A stretch of DNA of 64,000 nt from Corynebacterium confusum (GTDB lineage Bacteria; Actinomycetota; Actinomycetes; Mycobacteriales; Mycobacteriaceae): NCBI RefSeq assembly GCF_030408715.1, contig NZ_CP047202.1, positions 434,001 through 498,000 on the forward strand. Reading direction: 5' to 3'. The notes under the pieces are model-generated. The model saw only the letters and a program-made list of their open reading frames with translations. It was not told the origin of the DNA and did not search any database. Made by a program: the position numbers and the translations under genes. This document shows positions 20,793-21,818 of this stretch, in pieces (positions within the stretch are counted from its first letter, which is position 1; every line of letters begins with the position of its first letter).

Positions 20793-21818
20793 ATGTCTTC
20801 AACATCAAACACTGCTGAGCTAACCAGCATCTCAGTTACGCCGCCAAGTTACCGGCATGACCCTTCAGCCCGCATCCGCGCCATCAATTGGAATCGGGTG
20901 AGCGATGAGAAGGATCTTGAAGTGTGGAACCGCCTCACCGCCAACTTTTGGTTGCCAGAAAAGGTTCCACTTTCAAACGATCTCCCGGCGTGGCAGAGGA
21001 TGACACCGGAGGAACGCAACCTCACCATGCGGGTGTTCACGGGACTCACCACCCTGGACACCGTCCAGGCCACTGTGGGCGAAATCTGTCAGATCCAAGA
21101 TGCCCGCACCGAGCACGAGGAGGCCGTGTATACCAACATCGCCTTCATGCAATCAGTCCATGCCCGTTCTTACTCTTCAGTGTTTTCTACTTTGAGCAGT
21201 ACGAAAGAAATTGATGAGGCATACCGCTGGGCGGTGAATAATGACCTTCTCCAGGCACGCGCCAAAAAAGTGCTCACTCATTATTTTGGACCCGATCCAC
21301 TCAAGCGCAAAGTGTCATCGACGCTGCTTTCCTCGCTGCTTCTCTACGCGGGTTTCTATCTTCCCCTGCATTTTTCCGTCCACGCCACCCTGACAAATAC
21401 GGCAGACATGATTCGCCTCATTCTGCGTGACAAGGCAGTGCACGGTTACTACTCAGGCTACAAGTACCAGCGCGGACTGGAAACGTCTGCTCCACAACGG
21501 CAACAGGAGATGCATGATTTCACTATTTCCTTGCTCGAAGAGCTTTATGCCCTAGAGCTGGATTATTCCGGCGAGCTATATGAGCCGTTGGGGCTCATGG
21601 ATGATGTAGCTGTATTCGTTCGCTATAACGCCAATAAGGCGCTCATGAATTTGGGCTACCCGGACTACTTCCCACCTGAAGAAACGGAAGTGAACCCGGA
21701 AATCCTCGCTGCCCTAGCACCTGGAGCAGATGAAAACCATGACTTCTTCTCCGGCTCCGGTTCCTCCTATGTCATTGGCACCGCTGAAGAAACGAGTGAT
21801 GATGACTGGGATTTCTAA
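20793..21818 (+). CDS. nrdF: Metal-free class Ie ribonucleotide reductase radical subunit (NrdF, R2e QSK type)
   Basis: A 341-residue R2 subunit, about the usual NrdF length and clearly homologous along its whole length. In canonical NrdF, one Asp, three Glu and two His bind the Mn or Fe pair. Here Asp89 (TTLDTVQ), His123 (FMQSVHARSY) and His217 (RDKAVHGYY) remain, but the three Glu are Gln120, Ser180 (TLLSSLLLYAGF) and Lys214. Tyr127, the radical residue, is kept. This QSK set defines the R2e subclass, which stores its radical on a DOPA made from the tyrosine with NrdI and needs no metal. Codons checked: CAA, TCC and AAG. Confidence 0.95.
   Translation: MSSTSNTAELTSISVTPPSYRHDPSARIRAINWNRVSDEKDLEVWNRLTANFWLPEKVPLSNDLPAWQRMTPEERNLTMRVFTGLTTLDTVQATVGEICQIQDARTEHEEAVYTNIAFMQSVHARSYSSVFSTLSSTKEIDEAYRWAVNNDLLQARAKKVLTHYFGPDPLKRKVSSTLLSSLLLYAGFYLPLHFSVHATLTNTADMIRLILRDKAVHGYYSGYKYQRGLETSAPQRQQEMHDFTISLLEELYALELDYSGELYEPLGLMDDVAVFVRYNANKALMNLGYPDYFPPEETEVNPEILAALAPGADENHDFFSGSGSSYVIGTAEETSDDDWDF

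Follow-up and report, generated by a model that had tools for sequence, protein, structure and literature searches.

Background

The QSK-type class Ie radical subunit (R2e) of the ribonucleotide reductase (RNR) of Gardnerella vaginalis forms DOPA in the presence of NrdI, contains only trace metal and supports CDP reduction (PMC11846895). According to the distribution data of that paper, QSK proteins occur in 266 genomes, all of them of Actinomycetota and 105 of Mycobacteriales, and a QSK enzyme is the sole RNR of 65 species, 40 of which belong to Corynebacterium; horizontal transfer of the QSK genes has already been inferred from this distribution. The VPK variant of class Ie is found mostly in Mycoplasmatales and Lactobacillales, and the published neighbourhood analysis dealt with RNR genes within 300 bases of each other on one strand (PMC11846895). 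Metal represses class Ie expression in Streptococcus pyogenes (Do et al., cited in PMC8463856), and nrdI-nrdF2 of C. diphtheriae is among the MntR-regulated genes (PMC13001254).

Here, we describe a QSK-type nrdF on a stretch of 64,000 nucleotides of the Corynebacterium confusum genome (termed the window in the following), located in a six-gene cassette on a serine-integrase element. We interpret the cassette, with a probability of about 0.73, as a transferable, self-regulated, metal-sparing RNR. The class Ie QSK enzyme as such is known; what is new here is the package, the vehicle and the switch. A description of vehicle and switch together was not found among the matches listed in a search of open-licence papers.

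The QSK-type NrdF protein and other R2 genes of the host

The nrdF gene (20793..21818, forward strand) starts with ATG and codes for a protein of 341 amino acids, assigned to its family by Pfam Ribonuc_red_sm (E 3.4e-80) and NCBIfam RNR_1b_NrdF (439 bits, cut-off 355). The first-pass annotation had read Gln120, Ser180 and Lys214 from the codons CAA, TCC and AAG in place of three Glu metal ligands, with Asp89, His123, Tyr127 and His217 retained. These codons are present in nrdF, and all seven positions were borne out by an alignment of 165 NrdF matches from 163 loci (window NrdF as reference, three matches from the genome of C. confusum itself), in which the QSK residues fall at the positions claimed. 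Positions 120/180/214 are QSK in 44 and EEE in 121 of the aligned proteins, other combinations being absent. At 16 further positions (97, 100, 107, 125, 144, 147, 156, 182, 184, 186, 192, 211, 221, 243, 259 and 276), the window NrdF has the residue of at least 95% of 64 distinct QSK proteins, which include copies of the window NrdF itself, and of none of 39 distinct EEE proteins; position 17 was left out of this set because the EEE rows mostly have gaps there. The QSK-typical residue occurs occasionally at five of the 16 positions (125, 144, 192, 243 and 259) in a set of 61 distinct viral-contig rows plus the R2b of the host. The triad and the 16 co-varying positions indicate a true QSK-type R2e, as had been proposed, rather than a class Ib protein in which three residues changed by chance.

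In a phylogenetic tree of NrdF, built from 68 distinct rows of 101 and thus covering a subset of the QSK loci, the window protein groups with QSK proteins, with a 12-row clade supported at 100/100; as 19 of the 65 inner branches are open, only the starred groups were used. The best solved relatives, 8rag and 8rah (E about 3e-154), which we take to be structures of Gardnerella QSK R2, have the same Q, S and K residues. The cofactor site retains four of its seven residues, as would also be expected of a class Ib R2 that has decayed or still binds metal. Decay is at odds with the dN/dS of 0.024-0.027 for NrdF and with the 16 co-varying positions, and metal binding with the trace metal content of the Gardnerella QSK R2 (PMC11846895), so that we regard either possibility as very improbable. 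The window NrdF, a true R2e on the evidence above, likely works metal-free, with DOPA at Tyr127. Both nrdI and nrdE adjoin nrdF; the partners of a class Ie R2 are thus available.

The first-pass annotation had also attributed QSK proteins to Mollicutes, streptococci and some actinobacteria. Only the last of these stands, since in the survey of PMC11846895 QSK is confined to Actinomycetota, whereas Mollicutes and streptococci have the VPK variant; the NrdF of Mesoplasma florum, suggested for alignment, is therefore the wrong reference and the Gardnerella protein the right one.

The genome of C. confusum contains three R2 genes, two of which lie outside the window. One is a class Ib EEE nrdF with nrdI and nrdE (L001/L195), the other a chromosomal QSK gene with nrdI (L002/L194) but no nrdE match beside it. 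The window and chromosomal QSK NrdF proteins are 73% identical and fall into different parts of the tree. That the host already possesses a chromosomal QSK nrdIF counts against a clear gain from the cassette in this organism. The only TIGR02194 (nrdH) match of the host is at C1:2040593, and no nrdH was noticed in the cassette.

The element, its target site and its integrase

The sequences flanking the element are two parts of one EccC protein, an FtsK/SpoIIIE-type ATPase of type VII secretion. The left part of eccC (7848..9331, forward strand; FtsK_SpoIIIE E 1e-4, just short of the cut-off) ends at the Walker-A codon, and the right part (32920..35311, forward strand) matches FtsK_SpoIIIE with E 8.6e-62. 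A dinucleotide AA is common to both junctions, at 9330..9331 (presumed attL crossover) and 32918..32919 (presumed attR crossover and right end of the element); positioned at the Walker-A lysine codon of eccC, it bounds an element of 23,588 bp. A large serine integrase with Resolvase and Recombinase domains and a PHROG 95 integrase match (E 1e-91) is encoded at 9364..10839 on the forward strand, from an ATG in a frame open from the GTG at 9340.

A search of 242 Corynebacterium genomes yielded 28 integrase matches in 27 genomes. All 14 integrases that are at least 62% identical, the window's included, sit at the eccC Walker-A codon, as opposed to none of the 14 matches of lower identity, one of which (G012) is a 60% fragment. 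In three other species, the integrase is open, 93-96% identical and located at the same site. The cassette was found with three of the 14 eccC-site integrases; six of the other 11 genomes have no QSK match, three have one more than 400 kb away and two have one on another contig. In G106, a single contig contains the same element with the nrd operon, again at this codon of eccC; the EccC protein of that genome shares 59-64% identity with that of the window. In G156, the cassette adjoins the right eccC part, and a second contig has the integrase next to the left part. With both ends, the target site and the presence in other species found, the proposal that nrdF is cargo of a serine-integrase element is well founded. 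As regards a direct route for the spread of QSK, the carrier is what is added to the published inference, and the element is probably still mobile. The regulator, its presumed operator, the flavin reductase, the target gene and the two further R2 genes of the host go beyond the first-pass annotation.

The two eccC parts of the window comprise 523 and 810 residues, and no other eccC was found in C. confusum at E <= 1e-150 with the right part as query. An eccC match was obtained in 50 of 61 sampled genomes. Among the 49 others listed, 48 have an open frame of 1147-1498 residues, some of them with a stop in the region of the match; the frame of G086, a genome which itself has an eccC-site integrase, comprises 841 residues. 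The Walker-A pattern GATGSGKSE, applied strictly, matched in 10 of 14 fetched eccC loci of relatives. In C. glutamicum, iron is imported by the type VII system (PMC12607788); iron uptake could therefore be altered by the loss of EccC. No report of the eccC Walker-A codon as an integrase target was among the literature matches listed. Four distant serine integrases (28-34% identical; L290, L297, L291 and L292) were also noted. Two adjoin eccC away from its Walker-A codon, and the left junction of the other two shows a Walker-A-like sequence of another kind; integrases of this group may thus target P-loop codons more widely.

Backbone genes of the element

Downstream of the integrase gene, the forward strand codes for an HsdM-like type I methyltransferase (named from sequence reading) and an HsdS specificity protein, which gave two Methylase_S stretches (11028..14266), for a small resolvase/invertase with domain and PHROG matches (14269..14841), and for a DUF4192 protein and a single-strand DNA-binding protein (SSB), both with profile matches (14988..16862). 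No HsdR was noticed beside HsdM/HsdS, and HsdS consists of two near-repeated halves. A terminator-like hairpin (16873..16896, forward strand; consensus match only) lies at the boundary between the SSB gene and the cassette; such sites numbered five in the region, the mean in shuffled sequences being 6.6. On the other side of the cassette, the reverse strand codes for a candidate relaxase-like protein (22949..24709), so named from what we take to be a motif resemblance, for which no credible Pfam or NCBIfam relaxase match was obtained, and for a protein of 1480 amino acids with profile matches in which primase/helicase-like regions and an exonuclease are fused to a family-A DNA polymerase (25986..30428). 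A Mutator-type transposase gene (30597..31817, forward strand; profile match) marks an insertion sequence within the element, and a small HTH_17, excisionase-like protein (31860..32153, reverse strand) scored E 4.5e-5, just short of the curated cut-off.

No virion genes were found in the part of the element's open reading frames that was scanned. A viral origin was rejected, as none of the 80 viral loci kept out of 162 stretches is of the QSK type. A plasmid origin was likewise rejected, the whole element being without a megablast-level match in 72,556 plasmid records. NrdF matches occur in 130 plasmid records; the 40 listed are 58-68% identical to the window protein, a figure that refers to identity only.

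Extent, copies and conservation of the cassette

The cassette of about 5.8 kb comprises genes for a DtxR/MntR-family regulator, the flavodoxin-like activator NrdI (18029..18478; TIGR00333 above cut-off), the catalytic subunit NrdE (18546..20741, frame open from 18492; TIGR04170, 1162 bits), NrdF, a small ORF and a flavin reductase, all on the forward strand. Its extent (17069..22805) corresponds to an end-to-end match, at about 91% DNA identity, with the chromosomal copies of 19 further genomes; in those element-borne copies that are closest, the shared block extends beyond these limits on both sides. The eccC element is thus not the sole home of the cassette. A trigger-factor-like (tig) gene lies just downstream of it in 19 of the 19 genomes, and a ClpX-like gene within the stretch in nine, both names being read from sequence rather than assigned by a model. 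Three more genomes have divergent or partial cassettes.

Among 55 other QSK loci of the genus, NrdF identity to the window protein is at least 99% in 14, 96-99% in 20, 94-96% in two and below 94% in 19. In the 14 loci of the first group, all six genes are 98-100% identical, and none has tig- or clpX-like neighbours in the stretch examined. These near-identical copies point to a recent spread of the cassette among Corynebacterium species. Four backbones were compared at the DNA level, giving identities of 78-85% for the resolvase, 65-100% for DUF4192 and 99.8-100% for the SSB gene. Being as conserved as the cassette, the SSB gene appears to travel with it in these backbones; together with DUF4192, which shows full identity in G156, it indicates that the near-identity extends beyond the cassette.

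In an alternative reading, the RNR serves the element, providing a phage-like dNTP supply for the element's own replication which the regulator only times. The element does encode a primase/helicase-DNA polymerase A fusion and an SSB, the latter conserved along with the cassette, and viral contigs contain nrdF of class Ib (162 stretches). Nevertheless, the 91%-identical cassette lies beside the tig-like gene in 19 genomes whose examined stretches show no counterpart of the element polymerase or SSB, and the viral loci kept include no QSK protein at all (0/80), which renders a role in element replication improbable compared with that of an RNR for the host cell.

Purifying selection acts on each of the six cassette genes (dN/dS 0.02-0.20 against two relatives); comparisons with L014 and L011 were left out, as they were saturated for many genes. 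In L234, a flavin reductase match is lacking and the regulator is diverged. A promoter scan of 16860-23000 gave two sites, as compared with 3.5 in shuffled sequences, and neither lies before nrdI.

The linked regulator and its predicted operator

The first gene of the cassette (17232..17912, forward strand) codes for a DtxR/MntR-family regulator with Fe_dep_repress, Fe_dep_repr_C and FeoA domains. Its best solved relative is 5zr4, presumably MntR of M. tuberculosis; with 150 bits against the MntR equivalog NF047407 (cut-off 350), the protein is a relative of MntR, but was not called MntR. The ligand positions are N12, K15, H82, E86, H101, E105, E108 and H109. Asn12 takes the place of Met in DtxR and Asp in MntR, the other compared metal ligands being kept and resembling the Mn type; Asn12 was found in 53 of the aligned regulator matches. 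Three more members of the DtxR family are encoded by the host. One has the DtxR ligand set, another Asp at this position and the third Asn, the gene for the last adjoining the chromosomal QSK nrdIF.

Two tandem palindromes of the form AACTACG-N6-CGTAGTT precede nrdI and are predicted operators: AACTACGGTGCGGCGTAGTT (17957..17976) and, with one mismatch, AACTACGGTAGTATGTAGTT (17980..17999), i.e. two 20-bp units 23 bp apart. In the 2.49-Mb genome, three sites were found with up to one mismatch, namely the two of the cassette and one before the chromosomal QSK nrdIF, suggesting that no metal transporter shares the operator. Three further sites appeared at two mismatches; as the reversed control pattern gave 12 matches per strand compared with 6, these looser matches mean nothing. 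In the genus, the palindrome accompanies 41 of 41 regulator-linked and none of 14 unlinked QSK loci, the linked ones being mostly copies of one cassette and representing, by our reading, about seven independent lineages. It is absent from the class Ib loci of other genera (0/38) and of the genus (0/21, in three of which, lacking an nrdI/nrdE match, the stretch before nrdF alone was read). A different box, AGTTCAA-N4-TTGAACT, which resembles what we take to be the C. glutamicum MntR box, occurs with up to two mismatches in 11 of the 14 unlinked QSK loci and again in none of the class Ib loci (0/38 and 0/21). Among 36 QSK loci of the genome_contigs set, ten are linked to a regulator and two of these have the palindrome, both from Corynebacterium (L027 and L045); the regulator-operator pairing was thus not seen outside the genus. 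The 23 distinct operator 20-mers, picked by their half-sites, vary in the middle. One locus (L237) has three tandem palindromes upstream of nrdI instead of two.

DtxR-type genes lie within about 10 kb of 16/42 QSK loci of a first set and 41/55 of the genus set, which share some genomes, as compared with 0/38 and 0/21 class Ib loci. ZnuA-type binding proteins are encoded near 8/42 QSK loci (three of them Pfam-confirmed, one match being only 28% identical) and ABC-3 permeases near 6/42, again versus 0/38 and 0/21 for either gene; in the genus QSK set, each was found near only 1/55. In Micrococcales, some QSK loci have metal uptake genes as neighbours. For the first control, 38 class Ib loci from other genera were used. 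The genus control (n=21) comprised the host's own locus and 20 of 51 class Ib places, picked in list order by contig room before results were obtained; the 51 places, the host's own among them, derive from a motif that misses many. This same-genus control agrees with the reading of the cassette as a self-regulated, metal-sparing RNR.

The first metal ligand, Asp, is replaced by Asn12 in 53 aligned regulators and in both RNR-linked ones of the host, which could mean that the linked regulator answers to a non-metal signal, e.g. redox state or nucleotides; alternatively, the palindromes might belong to another protein. An operator found only before RNR operons in C. confusum would be in line with this. 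On the other hand, the regulator retains the remaining ligands among those compared, the operator goes together with a linked regulator (41/41 versus 0/14), unlinked QSK loci carry the MntR-like box instead, and metal uptake genes adjoin some of the Micrococcales loci, so that we consider such a signal, or another binding protein, unlikely. Regulator and operator appear to serve only two operons in the genome, both of the QSK type.

The flavin reductase, the small ORF and a neighbouring PEP carboxykinase gene

The last cassette gene (22112..22693, forward strand) codes for an NAD(P)H flavin reductase of the FMN_red family, which, on the basis of the profile match, its dN/dS and the neighbourhood counts, is a candidate electron donor of NrdI. 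FMN_red-type proteins are encoded near 20/42 and 44/55 QSK loci and 0/21 class Ib loci of the genus; relatives with 33-38% identity lie near 6/38 class Ib loci of other genera. The cassette enzyme may reduce NrdI, a task performed in Bacillus cereus by a different enzyme type, FNR2 (PMC10294844).

A small conserved ORF (21802..22071, forward strand; dN/dS 0.06-0.07, four predicted helices) overlaps the end of nrdF. It is conserved in Leucobacter, Micrococcus and Gulosibacter (63-68%), with a GPPPAFG motif invariant in six sequences, and is in two pieces in L235, L236 and L249. An AlphaFold2 model derived from six sequences shows four helices (mean pLDDT 78); neither a Pfam family nor a PDB fold match at E <= 0.001 was found.

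A gene for GTP-type PEP carboxykinase was observed near QSK nrd genes in 8/42 loci (L009, L013, L014, L016, L021, L022, L023 and L027; Pfam-checked in L014), 2/55 genus loci and 0/38 class Ib loci. The enzyme may be a further metal-related isozyme within this response.

A second QSK segment in different orders

A QSK segment of Corynebacterium G079, also carried by G111 of the same genus, shares 99.0-99.7% DNA identity with Helcobacillus massiliensis (Dermabacteraceae) in two blocks of 5.5 and 3.8 kb, and 99.3-99.6% with Pseudoglutamicibacter cumminsii (Micrococcaceae) over 5.0 and 2.9 kb. Both latter species belong to Micrococcales; the two records, 25 and 53 kb long, are draft contigs, for which mislabelling is possible. 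The near-identity points to a recent spread of this segment across actinobacterial orders. The G079 locus contains a Mu-type transposase gene.

With the QSK signature in 54 of the 242 Corynebacterium genomes, and such RNRs being common in this genus (PMC11846895), the window might just contain a QSK R2e operon of the ordinary kind, lying by chance in an island that is degraded and immobile, adding nothing to the published class Ie distribution. This is hardly probable in view of the integrase, which is open and conserved at the same site in three other species, the near-identical cassettes of 14 other genomes, and the DNA identity of about 99% across orders for the other segment.

Proposed function

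For the cassette, presumably transferable and self-regulated, we propose the following sequence of events. In the presence of metal, the regulator would sit on the two palindromes before nrdI and keep nrdIEF off; when metal is withdrawn, repression would be lifted. NrdI, perhaps reduced by the cassette flavin reductase, would pass superoxide to NrdF, and Tyr127 would be hydroxylated to DOPA, yielding a radical without metal, as is assumed from the Gardnerella QSK R2e. NrdE could then reduce ribonucleotides while the class Ib enzyme of the host, with its EEE and presumably Mn-dependent NrdF, starves. Because R1, R2, activator, regulator and operator are carried together, the cassette would work on arrival in a new host.

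The more far-reaching interpretation, namely that a metal-free RNR, a DtxR-family switch, its operator and an NrdI-reducing flavin enzyme form a self-contained metal-starvation module which passes between species, with a sister segment passing between orders, is in our view slightly favoured. If it holds, bacteria would gain metal-independent DNA synthesis in one step. In the eccC element, entry moreover disrupts a secretion system through which C. glutamicum imports iron (PMC12607788), and the RNR gained in return would require none. The near-identical copies suggest that an essential enzyme, likely metal-sparing, has recently spread within Corynebacterium and, in the case of the other segment, across actinobacterial orders; the flavin reductase is of interest as candidate electron donor of NrdI.

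Comparison with known systems

NrdR is a dedicated RNR repressor with paired upstream boxes. The switch of the cassette differs in consisting of a DtxR-family regulator and two 20-bp palindromes 23 bp apart. NrdR control of the cassette operon was considered and rejected, as inspection by eye, using what we take to be the NrdR box consensus, revealed no NrdR-like box before nrdI; in other genera, such boxes were noticed by eye upstream of some of the QSK operons. MtsR, which we take to be the regulator of class Ie in S. pyogenes, and MntR acting on nrdI-nrdF2 in C. diphtheriae are parallels, the RNR operon being under metal-responsive control by a DtxR-family protein. However, C. diphtheriae MntR controls several other genes (PMC13001254), whereas here a separate member of the family travels with the operon.

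Large serine-integrase elements are alike in their integrase domains, the two-base core and the partly mirrored ends (by eye); the element of C. confusum differs in its target, the Walker-A codon of eccC.

The VPK class Ie enzymes of Mesoplasma florum, Streptococcus pyogenes and Aerococcus urinae share the principle of a metal-free DOPA radical and the need for NrdI, but differ in the VPK triad, the gene order nrdFIE and their occurrence mostly in Bacillota (PMC11846895). The QSK system of Gardnerella vaginalis/Bifidobacterium vaginale agrees with that of the window in the Q, S, K triad, in the retained Asp, two His and Tyr residues, and in having nrdI, nrdE and nrdF together. Its operon is nrdHIEF, as opposed to the cassette, in which no nrdH was noticed, and a search of the paper for the words regulator, flavin reductase and MntR retrieved no description of a linked regulator or flavin reductase (PMC11846895), both of which accompany the QSK genes in the cassette of C. 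confusum.
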